Origin: Chlorops oryzae
Taxonomy: Eukaryota; Arthropoda; Insecta; Diptera; Chloropidae
NCBI GenBank assembly: GCA_020466095.1
Contig: CM035806.1
Location: forward strand, 113,169,080-113,233,079
Direction: 5' to 3'
DNA length: 64,000 bases
Shown one piece after another: positions 3,916 to 64,000 of this stretch. Under the pieces are notes generated by a model. That model was not told where the DNA came from. It was given only the letters and a program-made list of their open reading frames with translations, and did no database searches. Position 1 is the stretch's first letter. Every line of letters starts with the position of its first letter. The translations under genes and the position numbers were made by a program.

Positions 3916-5691
3916 ATGCTATGTTCTCACTATAGGGGTTAAGTTCTTAACCCGATAATTTAACTCAAAGCGTTCATATCAGCTTCGAGCAAGTTAGGGT
4001 TTACTAACGTCATAGATCCAGCCGGAAAGTTGACTACTTCTGCACTACTTCCGAAGTGGTGAAAATTCAAACTGCGGCTACTCGCATTACTAACCCTTAC
4101 TGTTAATGAAGTTTGTTGGGAGATGGCCGCTGTTTTCATTACATGCATGCGATAATGTCCGGCTTGGGAGTTTGAAATATAAAAAACGCGCAAGGTATAT
4201 CTGATATACTATATCATCGAGAAATTGCAACTAAAAATGGAATTTGCTTTATTAGAAATGTTAAAGGAAGCTGAAAAAGCAAAAAGAATATTGGAATCCA
4301 TAATATTAGAAGAGCATTGCAATATCCGCAGGAACAAAAAAATATTAATGGAGCTAATAGTGAAAGCGGCATCACAAAACGTTCCACGACCTGTGATTAA
4401 AATTTACATATCCAAATACGTGCATCCTTCCACACTCATTTTCGGCACGTGAAAGCAGGGAAGCTTTCCCGTGCAGCAAATGAGAGGTGAAGGATGTGTT
4501 TGGAAATGTTAATTTTGATCACAGGTCTTGGAACATTTTGTGATGCCGCTTTCATCATTAGCTCCATGAATCTATTTTTGTTCCTGCGGTTATTGCCATG
4601 GTCTTCTAATATTATTGCTTCCAATATTCCTTTGGCTTTTTCAGCTTCTTTAAACATTTCTAATGAAGCAAATTCCATTTTTATTTGCAATTTCTCGATA
4701 ATATAGTATATCAGATGTACCTTGCGCGTTTTATATATTTATAACTCCCAAGCCGGACATTATCGCATACATGTAATGAAAACAGCGGCCATCTTCTAAC
4801 AAACTTCATTAACAGTTAGGGTTAGTAATGCGAGTAGCCGCAGTATGAATTTTCACTACTTCGGAAGTAGTGCAGAAGTAGTCAACTTTCCGGCTGGGTC
4901 ATATGACGTTAGTAAGCCCTAACATATAGTACTATAGATGGCACTTGCCAAAAAACGTGTGTGTTGATTTGAAGTAGGCCCCCTGTGCATGCATTCTTAT
5001 GGAAAAATCAAAAACGTAGCACGGCCCTTGAAAATTCCGGTTCCGGTCTAACAAATATTTTATAATCTTGTAACATGAACTAAAATTTTTATTAAAAATC
5101 AGATATATATAAGTGTTAATCAAAGGTTTTTCATAAGAACTCATTACATTTTACAGCAAAATATGTTATTTTTATACAATTAAAAATAATTAGATAAAAT
5201 TTTGCTCATATTATGAGGGAACGATAAAGCAGAGTACTCATGCGTCGAATATGACCGATTATAAAAAAGTTTGAAATCCACTACAGAACAGCTGATATGA
5301 AATATTTAGTGATATCATAACTAATAATGCTCGATACATAAGTAGTGGCACAAGTACTTATTACATATCATGATAAATAGAATGCATAAACTATATAATT
5401 TTGTAGCTCTTCTGAATGAAAAAGGTACAAAAATGCATAAACTATCCTAAAAAACTAAAAAAGTTTTACATTAGAAAGAAAACGTTAAAAAATTCATCGC
5501 AATTATGTTTAGTTACAAAATTAAGTGAATATTCAAAAAATTATAGCATCACTAGTTCACCATGGAATTCGGTTGTTGTTGTAAGTGTCCCCTATATTAC
5601 TATATGACCCTAACTCGCTCGAAGCTGATATTAACGCTTTGAGTTAAAGTATCGGGTTAAGAACTTAACCCCTATAGTGAGAACATAGCAT
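3916..5691. mobile_element. Foldback (long inverted repeat) element, interrupted by a nested insertion
   Basis: The outer ends 3916-4000 and 5610-5691 are inverted copies and carry an internal small palindrome (GGGTTAAG, 2 bases, CTTAACCC). The inner arms 4000-4440 and 4500-4922 are also mutually inverted, so apart from the insertion at 4924-5606 the whole unit is a palindrome of roughly 1.1 kb centred near 4465. Each arm carries the same short open frame (4225-4452 plus, 4436-4690 minus; 75-84 aa, glutamate/lysine-rich). I do not recognise the protein. The arms share the CCAGCCGGA block seen at 34354 and 42437. A TA dinucleotide on each side is a possible target duplication. Confidence 0.75.
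4924..5606. mobile_element. Non-autonomous CATATAG-type element nested in the foldback
   Basis: The ends read ATATAGTACTATAG and CTATATTACTATATG. The flanks are GCCCTAAC (4916-4923) and ACCCTAAC (5607-5614), an 8-bp target duplication with one mismatch. Removing the insert restores the palindromic symmetry of the surrounding foldback, which confirms the boundaries. The 683-bp interior shows no coding signal. Confidence 0.8.
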
Positions 5692-6406
5692 TAAAAAAAA
5701 ATTGAACATTTTTTTCAGAATTTTTTACTTTGACCGTTTTTTCCCCTCAATGGGTCAATTTTTTACCAATAAATTAATTTTGCTTAAAAGCACATACAAT
5801 TGGCTTTCAAACTACATTAAAATTTTTTTTTCTACAGGTAACTATTGGTGTGGGAGAATTGTTTTTCTGGACTTAGTGTCAAAAAAACTTTAAAGCCACA
5901 TAACTTCTCAGGGGTGCATTTGGGACCCCACCCTCACATACGATTTTTTGTTCATCTTGTACCCCCCTACCACCCCTTATAAGGAATTTAATTCCCAACG
6001 GGACACCATGTAGAATACGAATTCTCAGAATTCCGGGACTCTTCCATTGTGCGTCGTACAATGTAGTTTTTGCTCTCTTTGTTGAGTTGTGTTTTCGAAC
6101 TTCTTGACGTTGCGCGTATAAAATGATCTCTAAAAACCAAAAGTGGCTTGATCTCATATAAAATATTTTTTCAATTTTTCCAAATACATAAAATTTTGTT
6201 TGAATCAGATTATTGGTTGGTTTTAGTATGACTACTAAAATATCGTTTAAAAGTATAATTCCAACTTTAATTTGGTCTAAAATGAAGACAATCATAAACG
6301 TCAACAATCTGGTAAACGTCAACACTTGCGGTTTTAATTAGTTGACGTTATCCCGAGTGTACTGTTTTATAGTTTATTTCTTTAAAAAAAGGATAAAAGT
6401 TTATAA
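5692..6406. other. Unassigned AT-rich DNA
   Basis: No recognisable gene. A 148-codon minus-strand open frame (5879-6325) resembles no family I know and its composition follows the background. The region separates the foldback from dispersed repeat A. Confidence 0.5.
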
Positions 6407-11729: not shown

Positions 11730-13017
11730 TTAGGTGTAGTAAAAAGAAATCCATTATTTTTCCAATAGATGGCGTTATTTATCTGCATCTCGCGTTGTAT
11801 AAGTCCGATCGTGTTCCGCTAGGGGGCATTAGAAAGATGACAGTTCCTACTAAAAAAGCTTTTTTGAAACTTTTTTGATTGATTGATTCAGTTTTGTTTG
11901 AGAGCTTGTCAAAGATGAACATCAGCAAAGAGAAAATTCGCTACATTTTACAGTTTTTCTTCGATAAGGGAGAAAACGCAAGCCAGGCGGCTGAAAATGT
12001 GAATAGCGTTTATGGACCTGATACTGTAACAGCCACTCATGCGCAATTTTGGTTTCGTCGATTCCGTTCCGGTAACTTCGAAGTCAAGGATACACCACTC
12101 ACTGGAAGGCCAATTGTCGAAAATGTCGATAAAATCATGGAAATTATCGAGTCCGACCGTCATGTTAGCATTGTTTCGATTGCAAAACAGCTAAAGATTG
12201 CACAAAAAACCGTTTGGAACCATTTGAATAAGGCTGGATACACAAAGAAGCTCGATGTATGGGTGCCACACGAGTTAACGCAAAAAAACCTCATAGACCG
12301 AATTTCCATCTGCGAATCGCTGCTGAACCGCAACAAAATCGACCCATTTCTGAAGCGGTTGGTGACTGGTGATGAAAAGTGGGTCACTTACGACAACGTC
12401 AAGCGAAAACGGTAGTGGTCGAAACACGGTGAACCGGTGGAAACGGTGGCCAAGCCAGGATTGACGGCCAGGAAGGTTTTGCTGTGTGTTTGGTGGGATT
12501 GGCAGGGAATTATCTACTATGAGCTGCTCCCATACGGCAAAACTCTTAACTCGGAACTCTACTGTCATTAATTGGACCGTCTGAAGGAAGCAATCGCCCA
12601 TAAGCGGCCAGCTTTGGCCAATAGGAGAGGAATTGTGTTCCATCAGGACAACGCCAGGCCACACACATCGATAGTGACTCGCCAGAAGTTCCGGGAGTTT
12701 GGTTGGGAGGTTCTTCTGCATCCACCTTATAGTCCGGACCTGGCACCAAGTGATTACCATCTGTTCCTGTCCATGGCGAACAATTTTGCTGGTGAAACAT
12801 TCGCTTCAAGAGAGGCTTCTGAAATTCGACTGTCTCAATTTTTTGCTAATAGGAACGAGGGCTTCTATGAGAGAGGCATAATGAAATTACCTTTAAAATG
12901 GCAACAAGTTATCGAACAAAACGGCGCATATTTGACCTAAATCGGGTCATTCTAACTATCTTAAATAAAGCCCTCAATTTAATGCAAAAATAATGGATTT
13001 CTTTTTACTACACCTAA
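11730..13017 (+). mobile_element. mariner element (DD34D, mellifera/capitata-like), complete with TIRs
   Basis: TIRs TTAGGTGTAGTAAAAAGAAA and complement, flanked by TA (11728-11729, 13018-13019). The 1288-bp length is normal for mariner. It lies inside element Y. Confidence 0.95.
11915..12940 (+). pseudogene. mariner transposase with two nonsense codons
   Basis: One frame of about 341 codons runs from ATG 11915 (MNISKEKIRYIL) to the stop at 12938-12940. The N-terminal paired helix-turn-helix region is present (SQAAENVNSVYG, FWFRRFRSG, GRPIVENVDKI). The catalytic triad is complete: first Asp in VTGDEKW, second in HQDNARPH, third in APSDYHLF, with 34 residues between the last two. Two in-frame stops, TAG at 12413-12415 and TAA at 12568-12570, each look like a single-base change. 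There are no frameshifts. The copy is therefore recently inactivated or a minor pseudogene. The sequence style fits the mellifera/capitata subfamily known from tephritids and bees. Confidence 0.95.
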
Positions 13018-51790: not shown

Positions 51791-52712
51791 TGTGACGACC
51801 ACAAAATCGTCACAACTTTGCACAAACAACAACGGGAAGAAACACAACGTCCACAAAAGACAACAACAACTGCAAGAAGACACAAAGCAGACATGCGCAA
51901 CAACAACACAACTAAACGATCGAAATCGAACGGCGCGACGCAGCAGAGCAGCACGCAGAGCGCATGCGGATAATGCATGTACACAGTCCAAAGGTCGACA
52001 CGCAGGAAAAGCGTGACTCAGAGGCCAAAGGTCGACACGCACGAAAAGCGTGACTAATAGTCCAAAGGTCAGTCCAGAAATGGATATAAAAGCAAGCGAC
52101 GGCACAAGGAAAAGGCAGTCAGTACGAGAACAGCACAAGAGAAAATTCCTAATCGTAGTTAACGAGACCTTGCCTCACAAGCGATTAAAGAATTTAGGAC
52201 AAATCTGAAGGATAATTGTTTGATCCTGGGTTTCTGGTAACGAGACAAAGCCTCACAAGGAAACTAGGTCCGATTATTATCCTTTCAGAGCATCTTTCTC
52301 AGAGCATCCTCGACAGTAAAACCGCGACAACGAACTGCAGTGGACATCGACTAGAGGACCAACAGTGAAGCCCTCCGTGGAACTACAGTGAAACCCTGCT
52401 CGTGGAACTACAGTGAAACCCCGTTTCATGGAACTACAGTGAAACCCCGCTTCATGGAACTACAGTGAAACCCCGCTTCGTGGGACTACAGTGAAACCTC
52501 ACTTCAGAGGACTCCAGCAAGACGCAGCCAACAATTACACGCAAACTACTTGAATTATATATTGAATTACATTGAATTATATATTACATTTACTGAATTA
52601 TATTAAAATTAAACAACCATTGAAAATCCTTAGATAACTGCGTTGAAATATAAATTTCTTGTACGACCCCTGGACACGACTGAGCGCTACCCCGGCAGGA
52701 TAGGTCGTTACA
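51791..52712 (+). repeat. 5' LTR (922 bp)
   Basis: Starts TGTGACGACCACAAAATCG, ends GGATAGGTCGTTACA. It contains two tandem copies of CCAAAGGTCGACACGCA and about six 26-bp units with GGAACTACAGTGAAACCC (52363-52510). Nearly identical to 58757-59678. Confidence 0.97.
52085..52124 (+). promoter_or_regulatory. LTR core promoter (TATA box and initiator)
   Basis: TATAAAAG at 52085-52092 is followed by TCAGTA at 52119-52124, matching the insect initiator TCAKT about 35 bp downstream. The equivalent in the 3' LTR is at 59051-59090. Confidence 0.7.
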
Positions 52713-52713
52713 A

Positions 52714-52728
52714 GTGGCGCCCGAGCAA
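52714..52728 (+). other. Primer binding site
   Basis: GTGGCGCCCGAGCA starts one base after the LTR. TGGCGCC is the usual tRNA 3'-end complement; the sequence is close to tRNA-Lys-type sites, but the tRNA was not verified. Confidence 0.7.
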
Positions 52729-52751
52729 AATTTGACAAGAAGACACACAAG

Positions 52752-53843
52752 ATGGTAAAAACTACATGGATATACTCTCTTCGGAAAGAGGACCTCTTAA
52801 ATTACTGCGAGACTGTAAAAATCGATACCCAAGGCACCGTCGACGAGCTACGAAAACGACTGGCCGCATTCGCAAATGAGCACGCATCAGATGACGAATA
52901 CGCACGAATATTACACGAATGGGAGGTAAAACACGCAAGAGCACCTTCACCACTTTTACCACTGGATGCAGACGCAAACCAAAATAATCCAACGGGAGCC
53001 ATTCCGAAATACGTACAAGCAGAAACTCTCCGAACAACCACATCGCCACCGTCAGTAACCGCAATTTCCATGCCAGCATACACGGACATTATCGACAAGG
53101 TCCGCAAATGGGGACTGAAGTACGACGGCAAGCAGGACGCTCTGAGCTTCATAGAAAGAGTGGAGGAATTGGCAGAAGTCTACGACCTACCGAAAAATAT
53201 GCTGCCCAGAACAATGCCAGAACTTTTAAAAGACATGGCCCTATCCTGGTACAGGAACAACAATGCAGCATGGCGCATCTGGAGCAACTTCAAGCGAGAT
53301 TTCCTAGAGTTCTTCCTACCACCACGATATTTCGAGCTATTAGAGGACACTATTCGCAGAAGAGAACAACAAGAAGAAGAGCCGTTTAAACAATACCTAT
53401 TAGCAATGCAGGAATTGATGCGACACACCGAATACACGGAAATAAAGAAACTGGATCGCATATATGAGAATAGCACCCACGAATTCCAGGGATATGCCAA
53501 GAGACGAGACTTTGCAACACTGAGAGGACTCATCGATTTAGCAGACGATTTCGAAAGGTTAAAAAGCAAAAAACAAGACAGAGCGAAACAAAAGAAACAG
53601 CCACAAAACCGAACCGAAGAGCGAAGTCGCCGAGTTACCGAACAAAAACCACCAGAACCAGCACAAGACACCCAAGACAAAATCGATGTCTACAATGCAT
53701 GCCGCCGATGCGGCCAACCAGGCCATCGCCAATTTGGCTGTAAAAATCCACAAATCCTATTTTGTTGGATTTGCGGGAAACGAGGAGTAAGGACAATTGA
53801 ATGCTGCAGGAAATCGGGAAACGAGCAAGGGGACCGCCAATAA
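52752..53843 (+). CDS. gag: Gag polyprotein, 363 aa
   Basis: Structural protein that packages the element's RNA. The N-terminus has a SAP-like helix pair (residues 8-45, SLRKEDLLNYCE...VDELRKRLAAF). The capsid-like core (about 110-280) has WGLKYDGKQDALSFIERVEE, LLKDMALSWYRNN and FKRDFLEFFLPPRYF, typical of gypsy Gag. A basic linker (QDRAKQKKQPQ) precedes a canonical CCHC knuckle (C317, C320, H325, C330) and a second one in which valine stands at the histidine position (C338, C341, V346, C351), a variant seen in related gypsy Gags. The ORF overlaps pol, which lies in the -1 frame. Start chosen at the first ATG after the primer site (AAGATGG). Confidence 0.93.
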   Translation: MVKTTWIYSLRKEDLLNYCETVKIDTQGTVDELRKRLAAFANEHASDDEYARILHEWEVKHARAPSPLLPLDADANQNNPTGAIPKYVQAETLRTTTSPPSVTAISMPAYTDIIDKVRKWGLKYDGKQDALSFIERVEELAEVYDLPKNMLPRTMPELLKDMALSWYRNNNAAWRIWSNFKRDFLEFFLPPRYFELLEDTIRRREQQEEEPFKQYLLAMQELMRHTEYTEIKKLDRIYENSTHEFQGYAKRRDFATLRGLIDLADDFERLKSKKQDRAKQKKQPQNRTEERSRRVTEQKPPEPAQDTQDKIDVYNACRRCGQPGHRQFGCKNPQILFCWICGKRGVRTIECCRKSGNEQGDRQ

Positions 53844-56800
53844 CGAGGCACGGCGACAAACCCCTACAGGAGGCCTCGAATTTAAAATTCTTAAATAATA
53901 CCATAGTTGCTCATATTAAACTGGGAGAAATACCCTTAGTAGCAACCATCGACACCGGAGCCACAAGAAACTACATAAGTAGGGCTATGGCCGAACAAAT
54001 TCGGGACTCCAGCCAACGACACAAAATTCGTGCCAACATACAACTAGCAGACGGCACCAAAACACTCGTAACTGAAGCAACTACAACCACGCTACAACTC
54101 GGACAAAACCGCCTACAAATCGAATTAGCTATATTAGAGCAGGTGGTAGACGACGTCATACTCGGCATAGACACACTGGGAGCGCTAGACGCACAGGTGG
54201 AGATTGCAGGCCAGAGTATAAAAATTCCAAAGATTCAAACCGCTGACTGGAATGCACTCTCAATACGAGAAGTCGCCGAAAACACAACCGAGTCACAAAG
54301 CAAACCAATCTCCCGAGCAGAAGCGGAAGAAATAATTCAAACAGAAATAAAACGTTTCGAAAGCATTGAAGGCCCGTCTAACATCGCAAAACACTACATA
54401 AGAGTAAAAGACGACATTCCCATCAAAGCCAGATACTTTCCGCAAAACCCTGCAAAACAAGAAATCATAAACAAAGAAATCGATGATATTCTCGAAAAAG
54501 GATGCATAGAACCATCGAACAGCCCATACAGTGCACCAACGGTCCTCGTACGCAAGAAAAATGGTAAATGGAGACTCTGCATCGACTACAGGCAACTAAA
54601 TGCTAAATCAATCCCTGACGCATACCCATTACCACGAATAAGCCACATTTTGGACCGTCTGAAGGATGCAAAAATTTTTAGCAGTCTGGACCTTAAAAAT
54701 GGCTACTGGCAAATTCCAATGGACGAGGCAAGCAAACAGTATACCGCGTTCACTGTGCCCGGACGGGGCCTTTTCCAATGGAAGGTAATGCCGTTCGGAT
54801 TACACTCAGCACCCGCAACTTTCCAACGGGCATTAGACTCAGTAATAACGCCTGAACTAGAACCGTTCGCTTTTGCGTACCTCGACGACATCATCGTACT
54901 AGGTCGAACACTGGAAGAACATATGACGAATTTAGTAGAAGTTTTTAGAAGATTACGTGAGGCCAACCTCAAAATAAATCCAGAAAAATGCGAATTTCTA
55001 AAAACAGAAATCAAATACCTTGGTCATATGGTAAGCGACAAAGGGATTCAAACAGACCCGTCAAAAATTGAAGCCATCGAACGTCTCAAGCCACCAACGA
55101 ACATAAAAGAACTACGGCAGTGCATCGGAATCACTTCATGGTACAGACGATTCGTACCCGAATTCGCAGACACCATACATCCCTTGACAACACTACTCAA
55201 AAAAGGAGTAAACTGGGTATGGACCGAAGAGCACCAACAAGCTTTCGAGAATTTAAAAAAGAAACTTACTGAAGCACCCATCCTTGCATGCCCGGACTTT
55301 AATAAACAATTCATTTTACAAACAGATGCCAGCGACTACGGACTTGGTGCAGTGTTGACACAGGATGATAATGGAAACGAGAGAGTAATAGCTTATGCAA
55401 GCCGCCACCTTAACAAACCGGAAACAAACTACTCAACCACCGAAAAAGAATGCCTTGCGATCGTTTGGGGAATTCGAAAAATGCGTCACTACCTCGAGGG
55501 ATACAATTTTATTGTCATCACTGACCACCTCTCATTAAAATGGTTAAATTCTATCGAAAACCCATCAGGACGCATCGCACGATGGGCACTAGAGCTGCAA
55601 CAATATAACTTCGAAGTTCGTTATAGGAAGGGGAGAGAGAACGTCATTGCTGACGCTCTATCAAGAGATCCACTGGAGACAACACGACGCATACACGAAG
55701 AAGAAATACCACCTCTGCCCAAGGACTGGGTCACACGGAAAACAGAGGAAATTAAAAAAGAGCCACATAAATTTCCAGAATATATAATAGAAAACGGAAA
55801 TTTATATAGACACCTACCGCCAAACGCAGACGATGAAGACAGCGTGGCTTGGAAACTATGTATAGGAAGGAAAGACATCGACCGAGTGCTAAACGAAAAT
55901 CACGATCACCCAACAGCTGGTCACCTGGGTATACGGAAGACATTCCTCCGAACAGCAAAAAAATATTTTTGGCCGAGCATGATGAAAGACATACGGAAAC
56001 ATGTGTTTCGATGCAAAAGCTGTCAACATTTTAAGGTAAACCAACAGAAGCCAGCAGGATATATGCTCACTAAAATCGCAGATGAACCGTGGGCCATCCT
56101 ATGCGCAGACTTCGTGGGACCATTGCCACGCTCTATACATGGGAACACAACACTACTGGTATTCTACGACAAATTTTCAAAATGGGTAGAATTAGTGCCA
56201 CTACGAAGCGCCACTGCCGACGCAGTCCGGAAAGCCCTTCGGGAGCGAATAATCGCACGATACGGGGTACCCAAGGTCTTGCTAACCGACAATGGCACAC
56301 AATTCACAAGCCGTAATTTAGAAAATTTTCTGGAAGAAATGGGTATACATCACCAGTATACGGCCCCATACACGCCCCAAGAAAATCCCACCGAACGAGC
56401 AAACCGCACGATAAAAACAATGATTGCACAGTATACACAATCATCACACAAACACTGGGACGAGGCGCTACCCGAAATCATGTTGGCCATAAACACCAGT
56501 GTTGCGGACACCACAGGCTTTAGCCCAGCCATGCTGACGCAAGGCAGAGAGCCGCGACTACCCAAAAGTCTTTTCGATGAAAAAACAACAGGTACAGTGG
56601 CAGAAGCACTAACAGTCACACAACGGCACAACCGACTTCAAGAAATTTTCAAAATTGTCGAAGTGAACCTAGCAAAGGCAAGCCAGGAACAAGCTCGCGC
56701 CTACAACCTACGGCGACGTCCGTGGAAACCTTATCGAGGACAACTGGTACTCCTACGAACTCACCCACTGTCGAAAGCCATTGACGATTTCGCGGCAAAA

Positions 56801-57004
56801 CTGGCACCAAAGTTCGATGGACCATTTATGGTTGAATCCTTCTCATCTCCCGTGATAGTGAAACTGAGAGACGGTAAAACGTTGAAGACAGCTCACATCT
56901 CTCAGCTTAAGCCATTTTACACTGATGAATCCGACCTGCAACAAAATGAAAACGTTGAGCAACCGCCAACACAAAACAATAACGTACCTTTTCCGTCGAA
57001 ATAA
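53801..57004 (+). CDS. pol: Pol polyprotein (protease, reverse transcriptase, RNase H, integrase), up to 1067 aa
   Basis: Expressed by -1 frameshift from gag. Aspartic protease active site is at 51-53 (TIDTGATRNYIS). Reverse transcriptase spans about 225-430 with WRLCIDYRQLN, GYWQIPM, FGLHSAPATFQRA and catalytic YLDD at 360-363. RNase H follows with LQTDASDYGLGAVL (D509). Integrase has an HHCC finger (H703, H708, C738, C741) and the D770-D830-E865 triad (ADFVGPLP, LLTDNGTQF, NPTERANRTIK) with the usual 34 residues between the last two. The C-terminus carries a GPY/F module (KFDGPFMVESF...KLRDGKTLKTAHISQLKPFY). No chromodomain. The domain order places it in Ty3/gypsy. No stops or frameshifts, so this copy looks competent. 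The first ATG is only the start of the open frame, since the shift occurs a few codons later. Confidence 0.97.
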   Translation: MLQEIGKRARGPPITRHGDKPLQEASNLKFLNNTIVAHIKLGEIPLVATIDTGATRNYISRAMAEQIRDSSQRHKIRANIQLADGTKTLVTEATTTTLQLGQNRLQIELAILEQVVDDVILGIDTLGALDAQVEIAGQSIKIPKIQTADWNALSIREVAENTTESQSKPISRAEAEEIIQTEIKRFESIEGPSNIAKHYIRVKDDIPIKARYFPQNPAKQEIINKEIDDILEKGCIEPSNSPYSAPTVLVRKKNGKWRLCIDYRQLNAKSIPDAYPLPRISHILDRLKDAKIFSSLDLKNGYWQIPMDEASKQYTAFTVPGRGLFQWKVMPFGLHSAPATFQRALDSVITPELEPFAFAYLDDIIVLGRTLEEHMTNLVEVFRRLREANLKINPEKCEFLKTEIKYLGHMVSDKGIQTDPSKIEAIERLKPPTNIKELRQCIGITSWYRRFVPEFADTIHPLTTLLKKGVNWVWTEEHQQAFENLKKKLTEAPILACPDFNKQFILQTDASDYGLGAVLTQDDNGNERVIAYASRHLNKPETNYSTTEKECLAIVWGIRKMRHYLEGYNFIVITDHLSLKWLNSIENPSGRIARWALELQQYNFEVRYRKGRENVIADALSRDPLETTRRIHEEEIPPLPKDWVTRKTEEIKKEPHKFPEYIIENGNLYRHLPPNADDEDSVAWKLCIGRKDIDRVLNENHDHPTAGHLGIRKTFLRTAKKYFWPSMMKDIRKHVFRCKSCQHFKVNQQKPAGYMLTKIADEPWAILCADFVGPLPRSIHGNTTLLVFYDKFSKWVELVPLRSATADAVRKALRERIIARYGVPKVLLTDNGTQFTSRNLENFLEEMGIHHQYTAPYTPQENPTERANRTIKTMIAQYTQSSHKHWDEALPEIMLAINTSVADTTGFSPAMLTQGREPRLPKSLFDEKTTGTVAEALTVTQRHNRLQEIFKIVEVNLAKASQEQARAYNLRRRPWKPYRGQLVLLRTHPLSKAIDDFAAKLAPKFDGPFMVESFSSPVIVKLRDGKTLKTAHISQLKPFYTDESDLQQNENVEQPPTQNNNVPFPSK
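53816..53879 (+). promoter_or_regulatory. -1 ribosomal frameshift signal
   Basis: Heptamer G GGA AAC (53816-53822) in the gag frame fits the canonical X XXY YYZ rule. Five bases downstream, AGGGG (53828-53832) can pair with CCCCT (53861-53865) and CGAGGC (53844-53849) with GCCTCG (53873-53878). The pairings cross, giving an H-type pseudoknot. The pol frame has a stop at 53798-53800, so the shift must occur in this short overlap. Confidence 0.8.
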
Positions 57005-57574
57005 ATATCCACGGCGACACAGGGCTCCCTCGGCGACGGCACGATAAAAAATTCATCCAAAACGGAATCGTCAGAGGAAAAATTGGTAAAAAAAAAAAAA
57101 AAAAAAAAAATATATTCGAGCATAAACTGCTTCAAATTGTAAAAATTTAAAAGAACCAGAGGAAAAGAAAACATATGAAAACTAAAGCCCGGTTATAATA
57201 CAAAATAGGCAAATCTACATTATAACTGAAAATAAAATCCACAAACCCAATAGGAATCAGGTCATTGACCCAAGAAAGGAAGAAAATGGGAAAATTAATA
57301 TCAGCCAATGGCACACAAGTAGATAGGAGTAATCACACACATAAACACATATGGAACAGAGGAAAGTAATGTGCAACAGTTGGTTAGAAAAGCAGCAGAC
57401 AAGAATTATGAAATATGCTTTCCCACTCTATGCCAAAAAAAAAAATATGCATATGCAGTAACAACGGAGGATCGACGGCGGCGTCGCAGCACTCATGAGA
57501 TCAAATAAAGTTCAAGGCCATATAATATGCAAAAGAAAGTCTCGACCGAGGATAATGGAAAAAATGCAAATATG

Positions 57575-57590
57575 ATTTCTCCTTTTCAGG
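57575..57590 (+). promoter_or_regulatory. Strong splice acceptor candidate upstream of ORF3
   Basis: TTTCTCCTTTTCAG followed by GG, AG at 57588-57589. A polypyrimidine tract ending in CAG would allow a spliced subgenomic mRNA for ORF3, as used for env in errantiviruses. A matching donor was not identified with confidence. Confidence 0.5.
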
Positions 57591-57654
57591 GAAATAGCGT
57601 TATTGTCAAATTTATTTCTTTTTCATACAACAACAAATCCTTAAATTAGAACAT

Positions 57655-57691
57655 TATAAAAGGGAGCAGTATCCCGACGAATAAATCATTT
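57655..57691 (+). promoter_or_regulatory. Putative internal promoter of ORF3
   Basis: TATAAAAGGG at 57655-57664 and TCATTT (exact insect initiator TCAKTY) at 57686-57691, about 33 bp apart. This would give a leader of about 50 nt before the ORF3 ATG. Confidence 0.5.
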
Positions 57692-57737
57692 TGCGAGTAA
57701 AATACAACGCGATCACAATTACAAATTTTTTTTAAAC

Positions 57738-58628
57738 ATGCAACACCCAACTGGAAATTCCGCCGGAGTCATCGGAACATACCCAAAGACAGGCCGAGGT
57801 TATTCAATCTTCAAGACGGATGTGGAGAGATTGGCCGAAGGAAAATGGGTGAATGACACCATCATCGACGTTTACGGGGCGTGGTTAATCCAAGGGCTGA
57901 TATCACCTGAAGATCGGGAAAAGGTATATTTATTCAGCGGTCTTTTCTTCCCACAGCTACTGGCGATCAAAAATGGAGAACGGCCACGAGATTTTTTGAA
58001 TGGATGGTTGCGAAGGGCAAAAATCTTCGAGAGAGATTATGTCATCATACCAGTTGTTGACAAATTCCACTGGACGCTCGTGATCGTGGACAGCACCCGG
58101 ATTCTACACTGCGACTCACTAAGAGGAACCCGGCAACACGACGTGGCGCAACTAATCCACCAGTTCCTCCAAGACGAAGCAGCACGAACCGGACCGGAAA
58201 ATGTAGAAAGAGTAAAGGCGATGAAGATCGTGGAAGTGCCCACAGCACAGCAAGAAAATGGTGCCGACTGCGGTTTATTTACCTTGAAATTTTTAGAGCG
58301 GTTCCTCACGACCATTCGCGCGGGGAAACGGTTCCAACCACACCACCTCATATTTGAAGCAGCGACGACATTGCCCACACGCCAAAAGTTGGTAGAGGTG
58401 TTCCAGGATATCTGCGACAAAGATGTGTTATGGTCGGAACTGATGAACGGAGTACTCGGAAGCGCACAACATGAAAATTTGGAGGAAAAACTACAGCAGA
58501 TCGGGGTCGAGATGCGAAAACGCTGGAAGAAGGGCACCCAAAGCAACTGTGTGCGGAAGCTTGGAACGATCACGGCCATAATCTCGATAACGCGAGCTGG
58601 AAAAATAAAAATACAAAGGAAAAATTAA
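57738..58628 (+). CDS. ORF3: Ulp1/SENP-like (C48) cysteine protease, 296 aa
   Basis: Predicted deSUMOylase-type cysteine peptidase. The start ATG sits in an excellent insect context (TTTAAACATGC). The family's substrate-binding helix is seen at 33-52 (AEGKWVNDTIIDVYGAWLIQ), then VYLFSGLFFPQLL (63-75). The catalytic histidine is in KFHWTLVIVD (H111, W112), the aspartate in LHCDSLRG (D126), the oxyanion glutamine at Q172 and the nucleophile in ENGADCGLF (C178). The Q-to-C spacing of six is the same as in yeast Ulp1. The C-terminal 100 residues are basic and not recognised. It replaces env between pol and the 3' LTR, has no signal peptide or membrane segment, and is uninterrupted, arguing for selection or very recent insertion. 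C48 proteases occur in some DNA transposons; I know of no standard gypsy family with one. Alternative: a viral adenain-like peptidase, less likely given the WVND helix. Confidence 0.88.
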   Translation: MQHPTGNSAGVIGTYPKTGRGYSIFKTDVERLAEGKWVNDTIIDVYGAWLIQGLISPEDREKVYLFSGLFFPQLLAIKNGERPRDFLNGWLRRAKIFERDYVIIPVVDKFHWTLVIVDSTRILHCDSLRGTRQHDVAQLIHQFLQDEAARTGPENVERVKAMKIVEVPTAQQENGADCGLFTLKFLERFLTTIRAGKRFQPHHLIFEAATTLPTRQKLVEVFQDICDKDVLWSELMNGVLGSAQHENLEEKLQQIGVEMRKRWKKGTQSNCVRKLGTITAIISITRAGKIKIQRKN

Positions 58629-58740
58629 CTGCGAAACATTCAAACCAATAACACAGCTGATCACGGGCAAAATAAAGCCGTGTTATAATGAATGGGACCC
58701 ACACGAGCACACAAGTTTGACAAAGGCAACGTCACGTTTC

Positions 58741-58756
58741 GGAAGAAAGGAGGGAG
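58741..58756 (+). other. Polypurine tract
   Basis: Sixteen consecutive purines (GGAAGAAAGGAGGGAG) directly before the 3' LTR: the plus-strand primer site. Confidence 0.92.
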
Positions 58757-59678
58757 TGTGACGACCACAAAATCGTCACAACTTTGCACAAACAACAACG
58801 GGAAGAAACACAACGTCCACAAAAGACAACAACAACTGCAAGAAGACACAAAGCAGACATGCGCAACAACAACACAACTAAACGATCGAAATCGAACGGC
58901 GCGACGCAGCAGAGCAGCACGCAGAGCGCATGCGGATAATGCATGTACACAGTCCAAAGGTCGACACGCAGGAAAAGCGTGACTCAGAGGCCAAAGGTCG
59001 ACACGCACGAAAAGCGTGACTAATAGTCCAAAGGTCAGTCCAGAAATGGATATAAAAGCAAGCGACGGCACAAGGAAAAGGCAGTCAGTACGAGAACAGC
59101 ACAAGAGAAAATTCCTAATCGTAGTTAACGAGACCTTGCCTCACAAGCGATTAAAGAATTTAGGACAAATCTGAAGGATAATTGTTTGATCCTGGGTTTC
59201 TGGTAACGAGACAAAGCCTCACAAGGAAACTAGGTCCGATTATTATCCTTTCAGAGCATCTTTCTCAGAGCATCCTCGACAGTAAAACCGCGACAACGAA
59301 CTGCAGTGGACATCGACTAGAGGACCAACAGTGAAGCCCTCCGTGGAACTACAGTGAAACCCTGCTCGTGGAACTACAGTGAAACCCCGTTTCATGGAAC
59401 TACAGTGAAACCCCGCTTCATGGAACTACAGTGAAACCCCGCTTCGTGGGACTACAGTGAAACCTCACTTCAGAGGACTCCAGCAAGACGCAGCCAACAA
59501 TTACACGCAAATTACTTGAATTATATATTGAATTACATTGAATTATATATTACATTTACTGAATTATATTGAAATTAAACAACCATTGAAAATCCTTAGA
59601 TAACTGCGTTGAAATATAAATTTCTTGTACGACCCCTGGACACGACTGAGCGCTACCCCGGCAGGATAGGTCGTTACA
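58757..59678 (+). repeat. 3' LTR (922 bp)
   Basis: Same length as the 5' LTR, about two base differences noticed. Ends GGTCGTTACA then AAGT. Confidence 0.97.
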
Positions 59679-62190: not shown

Positions 62191-63156
62191 ATGAAATGGA
62201 GCCGAAAGAATTACCGAGAACTTATAATGCAACATATGAAGCAGCTACGGGTCCCATTCGATGGAAAAAAGGAGGAATTAGCAATATTCATATCGGGTGT
62301 CGATATTATAATCAATCTAAGCTCGCCGTTAACGAAAGACGATATAACACTGATTTCCAATGCAGTCATAAGAACACTACGTGGTGACGCCTTAAACGTT
62401 TTGCGTAGAGAGCAGCCTGGCGACTGGACTACCCTAAAGAAGCTTTTGATCAACGAATTTGGTGAGCATGTTCCAATAACAACGTTAATTCTAAATTTAG
62501 AAAATATAAGATTTAAAAGAAATGTGAAACTTTTGTTTGAGGAATTTAACTATGAATTATGTAGAATTAAGGACGCTATAAAACTCAACATTGAATTGGA
62601 ATTCGAAAAGAAACTCCTTTTAGAGGAAGCAAATAGCAGATGCCTCAAAAATTTTAAAAAACAATTGCCAAATCATTTAGTCGCACTTCTAAACGCACAT
62701 TTAGTCAAAAATATAAACGACGCTTTACGCATTCTACATGAAAATGACGCGTTTGAGGATGATGCTAAATTTACACAGAGAAAATTTGTTAATAAAAATA
62801 TATACCAACCACCCACACCACCCTTCCTCGGTAATTTTCCCCCTATACCTCAATATCAACCACCCACAACACCACCCTTCCTCAGTAATTTTCCTCCTAT
62901 ACCTCAATATCAACCACCCATACCACCCTTTCCTGGTAATTTCACCCATATAACTCAACCCCAACCCCCTCAGGGCAATTTAAATCGACAGCAGCTTAAC
63001 CAAAATCCCTTTCCGGCATACAACAGAAAACAAGATCACGATTCTAATCAGTCCCGCATAAGAAAATATGGCGTACCACAACCAATGGATACAAGCTCTG
63101 TGCAGGCAAATTTTCTAGTAGAAGCCTCGGAACAGAACTTCCAATTCTTAAATTAG
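62191..63156 (+). CDS. gag: Gag of a 17.6/297-type gypsy element, 321 aa
   Basis: The N-terminal part has the errantivirus-style Gag signature: VPFDGKKEELAIFISGVDII, then IRTLRGDALNVLRREQPGDW and LKKLLINEFGEHVPITTLIL. There are no CCHC knuckles, as usual in this group. The C-terminal third is proline-rich, with three tandem repeats of the type YQPPTPPFLGNFPPIPQ (about residues 205-265). The frame is intact and pol follows in the -1 frame, overlapping near 63100-63156. The start is uncertain: ATG 62191 opens this frame, while a second ATG at 62196 belongs to another frame. About 470 bp of leader precede it. Confidence 0.8.
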   Translation: MKWSRKNYRELIMQHMKQLRVPFDGKKEELAIFISGVDIIINLSSPLTKDDITLISNAVIRTLRGDALNVLRREQPGDWTTLKKLLINEFGEHVPITTLILNLENIRFKRNVKLLFEEFNYELCRIKDAIKLNIELEFEKKLLLEEANSRCLKNFKKQLPNHLVALLNAHLVKNINDALRILHENDAFEDDAKFTQRKFVNKNIYQPPTPPFLGNFPPIPQYQPPTTPPFLSNFPPIPQYQPPIPPFPGNFTHITQPQPPQGNLNRQQLNQNPFPAYNRKQDHDSNQSRIRKYGVPQPMDTSSVQANFLVEASEQNFQFLN

Positions 63157-63410
63157 AAATAGGAAAACAATTACTAAACTTAGTCATCGATACTTGCTCA
63201 ACCATAAGGTTAATAAATCTGGGCATAATTGATTCGAAGTGTTTTAAAACAGACACAATAAGTGTAAAAACCATATTAGGCTATAAAAATTTAGATGTAG
63301 TTCAAGCGCTTTTCGAGCCAAAATTGATTGAGGGATACCTTAAGTTTTACGTTTTGAAATTTTCAGATGATTTTGACATACAATACGTATGGACATTCTT
63401 AGGATATTAA
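63100..63410 (+). pseudogene. Retropepsin part of pol (second gypsy), damaged
   Basis: In the -1 frame relative to gag it reads TELPILKLEIGKQLLNLVID followed by TCSTIRLINLG. The invariant D-T-G active site is D-T-C here, which should abolish protease function. The frame ends in a stop at 63409-63411, while the reverse-transcriptase frame begins in another phase around 63389, so one indel near 63380-63390 separates them. Confidence 0.75.
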
Positions 63411-64000
63411 ACGCACGTATTGACTTGGTCGCCAACACAATCGAACTAAACGGACAAACTTATGAAATGACAAAACCCAAAGAGGAAGTGGAATATAAAA
63501 AAATGCTAGAAGAAATTAATATGACTCAGGAAATAGAAAAACCTAAATTTAGATTAGATCACCTCAATAACGAGGAAAGAGAAGAAATCAATAAATTACT
63601 TCAAAAGTACGAAGAAGTATTTTATTCTGACAGCCAAAAACTGACCTGCACTAATTCAATTAAGCATAAAATTCTAACGAAGCATGAGGACCCAATTTAC
63701 GTTAAACTTTATCGATACCCTCAAGTTCACAAAGCTGAAGTAAATAGGCAAATTAAATCAATGTTAGATCAGGGATTCAAACGTCCTAGTGAGTCTCCAT
63801 ATTCAGCACCCCTTTGGGTGGTACCCAAAAAACTTGACGCTACCGGAGAACAAAAATGGCGTATCGTCATAGATTATCGAAAATTGAATGACATCACAAT
63901 AGACGACAAATTTCCGATCCCTGTAATGGACGAAATCCTAGATAAATTAGGCCGATGCCAATACTTTTCAACGTTAGACTTAGCCAAAGGATTCCACCAA
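63389..64000 (+). CDS. pol: Reverse transcriptase part of pol (second gypsy), cut by window edge
   Basis: Open from ATG 63389 to the end of the window, about 204 codons. It carries [20 protein letters not shown] (the protease-RT linker of gypsy elements), then [39 protein letters not shown] and [15 protein letters not shown], the first blocks of Ty3/gypsy reverse transcriptase, ending just after the first catalytic aspartate (LDLA). The catalytic YxDD, RNase H and integrase lie beyond the window. The upstream frameshift and the mutated protease site mark the copy as defective. Confidence 0.88.

Follow-up and report, generated by a model that had tools for sequence, protein, structure and literature searches.

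A SENP/Ulp1-like protease gene recurs among gypsy retrotransposons of the fly Chlorops oryzae

Mobile elements that bear Ulp1-type genes have been described among DNA transposons, namely Ginger1 and Mutator, in PMC2836005. Ginger1 combines mobility with a gypsy-type integrase and an Ulp1 domain of the C48 class, but it is a DNA transposon of the cut-and-paste type, bounded by terminal inverted repeats, in which Ulp1 forms the C-terminal domain of the transposase, and the Mutator-like elements named there likewise bear an Ulp1-like protease (ULP) gene. Here we report on a 64,000-nt stretch of the genome of Chlorops oryzae (contig CM035806.1, positions 113,169,080 to 113,233,079; hereafter the window), which holds a complete-looking, young Ty3/gypsy element at positions 51791-59678, whose third open reading frame (ORF), ORF3 (57738..58628, + strand, 296 aa), is assigned by Pfam, a PDB sequence match and its catalytic residues to the SENP/Ulp1-like cysteine proteases. 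In contrast to Ginger1, this element has long terminal repeats (LTRs), a reverse transcriptase and a separate ORF3 behind pol, and so falls outside the Ginger1 type. Mutator-like elements are DNA transposons and are not known to have reverse transcriptase or LTRs. Among retroelements, the errantiviruses and other env-bearing Ty3/gypsy elements share with the window element a gag-pol unit followed by further ORFs ahead of the 3' end, but the window element lacks env, and its relatives in this genome add a ULP gene, in two cases (L033 and L047) together with a tyrosine phosphatase gene. The MDG1-group elements with sORF2 are likewise LTR retrotransposons that lack env and have an additional, accessory ORF; according to PMC11952523, the sORF2 product is short, transmembrane and fusogen-like, whereas ORF3 looks like a soluble enzyme. 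SENP1, SENP2, SENP6, SENP7 and Ulp1 share the C48 domain and the catalytic tetrad, and ORF3 differs from them in being encoded by a retroelement and in possessing an additional C-terminal module. No gypsy element with an Ulp1 gene was present among the literature matches listed, a set outside which Repbase reports and subscription journals largely lie, and neither Ulp1 nor SUMO came up in a term search of the main text of PMC12440569 and PMC12992720.

The initial annotation had described an intact frame of 296 codons between pol and the polypurine tract, with the tetrad H111-D126-Q172-C178 and a WVND stretch, and these features hold: the frame is free of stops, the tetrad is in place, and the stretch is found as W37-V38-N39-D40, with W112 present likewise. 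The C48 match proposed at the same time stands as far as sequence profiles go, with Pfam PF02902 (Peptidase_C48) scoring ORF3 at 76.7 bits over a cut-off of 20.7 (E=3e-21) and SENP2 being its top relative by sequence in PDB (3.8e-19). The profile of eight ULP ORFs, which takes in two (L032 and L035) with no gypsy pol seen beside them, matches SENP7 (9.6e-35), SENP2 (5.2e-33) and SENP1 (7.8e-30), and also SENP5, SENP3, Ulp2 and Ulp1, its match to the NEDD8 protease SENP8 being far weaker (4.1e-5). H111, W112, D126, Q172 and C178 are invariant across these eight ORFs, and the catalytic cysteine is retained in 14 of 15 ULP ORFs. By these sequence measures, ORF3 is a C48 protease.

Had ORF3 been present in a single copy, a one-off capture would have been suspected; a search of the window's own genome (442 Mb in 1044 contigs) gave instead at least 136 ORF3 matches, including 16 loci whose ORF3 is within 2 nt of that of the window, the window itself (locus L007) being counted once among them, and many further elements. 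A second ORF3 subfamily comprises 10 loci at 98.4-98.8% identity. Throughout the 28 near-identical loci L001-L028, ORF3 keeps its register with the spacer and the LTR and, in most cases, with the end of pol, which is missing in L008 and L025 and represented only by an inverted piece in L017, some LTRs and spacers being shortened. The 3' flank is legible in 26 of these 28 loci and is distinct in all 26, that of L008 being primer-binding-site-like sequence, that is, the start of another element. When the last 378 residues of pol were used as a query, 44 of 109 matches were at least 80% identical, and 42 of these 44 have, among the matches listed, an ORF3 match no more than 4 kb downstream (the pairing used 127 of the 136 ULP entries, nine fragments being dropped, and 109 of 110 pol entries, one fragment being dropped). 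A genome scan with the Pfam C48 model, from which the best 150 of 513 candidates were scored, all above the cut-off, gives a downstream match for at least 37 of the 44 close pol copies. At least 64 of these best 150 sit no more than 4 kb downstream of pol matches from two pol searches, against a mean of 0.07 and a maximum of 2 in 200 trials of random placement of pol matches on three large contigs. The gene spreads together with the element. Searched against a protein database, ORF3 and the eight-ORF alignment gave no match at E<=0.001; both, together with pol, gave none against viral contigs, and pol gave none against genome contigs of bacteria and archaea. As the protein and viral sets seem poor in eukaryotic DNA, these searches are uninformative on other insects.

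Between subfamilies ORF3 is under purifying selection, and the decay without such selection that the initial annotation had named as a sign against its proposal is not what is seen there: the comparison of the window with the 78% subfamily yields for ORF3 a synonymous divergence (dS) of 1.21, a non-synonymous divergence (dN) of 0.133 and a dN/dS of 0.110 (bootstrap 95% 0.066-0.173), with a pol dN/dS of 0.067-0.069 for the same pair of loci. The two youngest subfamilies diverge by 1.23% in ORF3, 2.56% in the spacer, 1.04% in the pol end and 1.02% in the LTR. Four L033-type copies give six pairs with dN/dS of 0.23-0.50, and a stop codon is present in two of the four.

The C48 gene recurs in several gypsy families, in which its position varies. 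The order is pol-ULP-env in L036, L037 and L051 and pol-env-ULP in L038, while L033 runs from the integrase end through a tyrosine phosphatase (PF00102, 4.3e-71) and env (PF07253, 7.7e-20) to ULP. The phosphatase domain of L033 lies in frame behind the integrase end, at 4223-5698 of G000:C3:65657191-65663200. L047 shows phosphatase-env-ULP again, with a 94%-identical phosphatase copy at 1-888, and env-ULP appears again in L048, L049 and L050; altogether, env or env pieces of the Gypsy/Baculo_F type adjoin ULP in L033, L036-L038 and L047-L051. The env-bearing families carry both genes, so that in them the protease supplements env and does not take its place, which corrects the earlier description of a protease in the env position. 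L032, L034 and L035 hold ULP with no gypsy pol match within the stretch fetched, and in L032 an env ORF lies on the opposite strand. The ULP ORF of L034 (G000:C3:72244685-72251000) sits inside a tandem array of units of about 2.3 kb; L053-L062 and L065 comprise short pieces only. This recurrence, together with the purifying selection between subfamilies, supports the existence of a gypsy lineage that conserves a C48/SENP-like ORF.

The third gene is modular, and the protease makes up one of its halves: protease-less sister families keep the tail on a different ORF3. In ORF3 of the window this C-terminal module occupies residues 232-296 (58431..58625, + strand); it is a basic (+8) unit of about 55-65 residues, separate from the protease domain, and is predicted to form a helix and three strands with a predicted local distance difference test score (pLDDT) of 74. 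The sister families are represented by 65 pol matches at 54-66% identity, none of which (0/65) has a ULP downstream among the matches listed; in eight of the 65 sisters whose 3.3 kb past pol were inspected, no ULP is present (0/8), and seven of these eight have another ORF of about 180-400 aa there. These seven sister ORF3s (L039-L043, L045 and L046) are charged and unnamed, none scores above the Pfam cut-off, and six of them carry the ULP-type C-terminal module. Their last 50-60 residues match the ULP tail with an hhalign probability of 95 and a score of 45.9, a value reached in none of 200 column shuffles of the tail alignment (maximum 15.6; 0/200), the reversed alignment scoring 10.2. Between entire ORFs, alignment is confined to the tails (residues 243-295), and ULP residues 1-225 give no match to the sister ORF3s (probability 0.3). 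A hidden Markov model (HMM) of the tail, built from eight ULPs, matches seven of seven further ULPs (E 5e-6 or better) and detects six of the seven sister ORF3s (E 0.0034 or better), missing L045 (E 7); the tail is present in 15 of 15 ULP ORFs, and the host SENP exon L052 is without it (E 1.3). With the sister-tail HMM, seven of the 15 ULPs are found at E<0.01, and L065 (E 2.5) does no better than the host exon (E 2.2). The link between ULP and sister tails thus looks clear for the set and weak for single members. The E-values of these tests, like the kinship scores below, were computed for 7 to 16 sequences, the limits of the tail were chosen after the likeness had been noticed, and the tail of L036 was trimmed by hand. 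From the 12 ULP loci L054-L065, seven entered the tail and tree tests, those left out being L054 and L056, which are apparent near-copies of L055, and L057, L059 and L061, which have no tail. A gypsy pol is shown beside eight of the 15 tested ULPs (the window, L030, L033, L036, L037, L038, L063 and L064) and for none of the other seven (L032, L035, L055, L058, L060, L062 and L065).

The kinship of the ULPs bears on the origin of the gene. For window ORF3 the score is 531 bits with the 78% subfamily, 57-110 bits with 12 of 13 other-family ULPs and 34.4 bits with L058. At least two of the best 150 C48 matches look, in our reading, like genes of the host, namely L052, a SENP1/2-like exon against which window ORF3 scores 48.9 bits, and L053, which is SENP6/7-like. 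We infer that the combined ULP-tail gene is probably old, because tailed ULPs are found in the window lineage as well as in env-type families that are more distant in pol, with the sisters nearer in pol having the tail only; the sisters would then have lost or replaced the catalytic part, and a later gain of ULP in the window lineage stays a candidate as well. That different gypsy families captured host SENP genes separately, in place of one ancient acquisition, seems to us unlikely. Such captures would fit the placement of ULP before env in some families and behind it in others, the mere 24-33% identity of the window ULP to those of other families, the lower score of window ORF3 against L058 than against the host exon, and the tree of catalytic domains, in which the window lineage is set off from all other rows and the only host row, which is long, branches close to it at weak support (64/77). 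They fit less well with the C-terminal tail that all 15 ULP ORFs have in common and L052 lacks, or with the scores by which window ORF3 is closer to L033 (106 bits) and to 11 other ULPs than to L052, and by which L033 surpasses PDB SENP2 (72 bits) as its relative.

The window element is placed in Ty3/gypsy by its TG...CA LTRs, target duplication, primer-binding site, polypurine tract and domain order. Its 5' LTR (51791..52712, + strand) and 3' LTR (58757..59678, + strand) measure 922 bp each and differ by two mismatches, in keeping with the very young age first ascribed to it, and the 4-bp target duplication AAGT precedes the one and follows the other. A primer-binding-site-like sequence, TGGCGCCCGAGC, which we take to be of the tRNA-Lys type, is recognizable at 52715..52726 (+ strand), starting 2 nt past the 5' LTR. 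It is followed by gag (52752..53843, + strand, 363 aa; Pfam Retrotrans_gag 3.8e-7), with a SAP-like N-terminus and a CCHC knuckle that each fall under the Pfam cut-off (a weak zinc-knuckle match), and by pol (53801..57004, + strand, 1067 aa), which is in the -1 frame relative to gag with an overlap of 43 nt and in which Pfam finds aspartic protease, reverse transcriptase, RNase H and integrase in this order. The 733-bp spacer between pol and ORF3 (57005..57737, + strand) is AT-rich (34% GC) and shows no transmembrane-like stretch in any ATG-started + strand ORF of at least 30 aa, so that a transmembrane or fusogen ORF is ruled out among ORFs of that kind. Comparison with the 78% subfamily singles out within the spacer a splice-acceptor-like sequence, TTTCTCCTTTTCAG (57576..57589, + strand), which is mostly retained there, with small differences, despite the divergence of much of the spacer; it may serve a spliced ORF3 mRNA, for which a splice donor was not identified. 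No env was found in the window element, ORF3 being the sole long + strand ORF between pol and the 3' LTR, and the ORF3 protein has no transmembrane-like stretch, which sets it apart from an errantivirus env. The 128 bp from the ORF3 stop to the 3' LTR end in the polypurine tract GGAAGAAAGGAGGGAG (58741..58756, + strand), which abuts the LTR. Elsewhere in the window, a gag-like ORF of 321 aa and the beginning of a second gypsy-like pol, truncated by the window edge, lie at 62191-64000, and an apparently incomplete ORF, judged by eye to be a Mariner-like transposase, lies at 11879-12415.

In Drosophila, the nuclear silencing of retroelements by PIWI-interacting RNAs (piRNAs) involves a SUMO ligase, according to PMC7272611. 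We regard it as probable that ORF3 is a genuine third gene, coding for a SENP/Ulp1-like SUMO isopeptidase with a C-terminal helix-beta module, which would de-SUMOylate host restriction proteins. Most likely it would act as a deSUMOylase that its tail guides to the element's nucleoprotein or to chromatin: ORF3 would be translated from a spliced subgenomic RNA, the acceptor-like site lying upstream, and would cleave SUMO off conjugates, its basic tail would bring it to the element's own nucleoprotein or to chromatin, and there it would strip SUMO from host proteins restricting the element, the leading candidate being the piRNA-heterochromatin machinery, to which the SUMOylation of Panoramix belongs.

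Several observations weigh against this role as a host-directed deSUMOylase. On the structure side, the C48 match has only a single-sequence fold model of low confidence (pLDDT 47), and in L060, a ULP ORF of 285 aa that retains the tail, tyrosine replaces the catalytic cysteine. The two youngest subfamilies differ in ORF3 by 4 synonymous and 7 non-synonymous changes, among which selection is not visible; the ULP ORFs of L057, L059 and L061 are shortened and end ahead of the tail, and two of the 44 close pol copies have no ORF3 match among the matches listed. When env-type pol was searched for with L037 as the query, at least 26 of 100 matches, and at least 6 of the 39 at 97% identity or more, had a listed C48 match downstream, these counts being lower bounds that draw on the best 150 of 513 candidates. 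Four places without a C48 match were examined: in L066 and L067, whose pol ends are 100% identical, 2.8 kb contain no ULP and no env, L068 retains an env piece and no more than 32 codons from the start of the ULP frame, and L069 (74% pol) has no ULP. The gene can therefore be dispensed with in cis in that env-type family, in which intact copies could supply it, and the many pol matches without ULP suggest that env-less, ULP-less derivatives of the L066/L067 type were amplified.

It is less probable, and in our view doubtful, that ORF3 is a protease for ubiquitin-like modifiers acting on the element's own proteins, taking SUMO or other such modifiers off Gag, integrase or the particle and thereby aiding assembly, nuclear entry or integration. 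Its nearly constant company with pol in the close families (42/44) would agree with such a role, as would the basic tail, since its presence on otherwise different ORF3s suggests a common element-internal partner; however, L066 and L067 have dispensed with ORF3 along with env, as they would with an accessory gene. Very improbable is a maturation protease that cuts Gag or Pol in the manner of adenain of adenoviruses. C48 and adenain-type proteases are distantly related, and ORF3 is located in a retroelement, but the C48-less sisters keep long open pol frames, many of more than 1,000 aa, and the polyprotein processing offered as one option in the initial annotation is unlikely because Pol already holds a retroviral aspartic protease and Gag and Pol of the window element contain zero Gly-Gly dipeptides. 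A single, recent capture of a SENP gene from the host, functionless in the element, to which the SENP resemblance and the presence of host exon L052 might point, deserves next to no credence, being refuted by copy number and dN/dS and opposed by the spread over many loci and families, by the absence of the tail from L052 and by the lower score of window ORF3 against that exon than against 12 of 13 other-family ULPs.

To our knowledge, little is known of counter-measures to silencing that retroelements themselves encode, and a conserved, selected SUMO-protease-like gene in several gypsy families is a concrete candidate for one. That third genes carry the tail whether or not they have the protease is an indication that Ty3/gypsy elements possess an accessory gene of modular build. 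More tentatively, one could picture that gypsy elements and endogenous retroviruses have radiated with an exchangeable third gene, in which a shared C-terminal module anchors different effectors to the element. In many families the effector would be a SUMO protease taking apart, at the loci of the element itself, the piRNA heterochromatin that depends on SUMO, a device against silencing encoded by a retroelement. The presence of a SUMO-protease-like gene in jumping elements suggests possible interference with a control system of the host.
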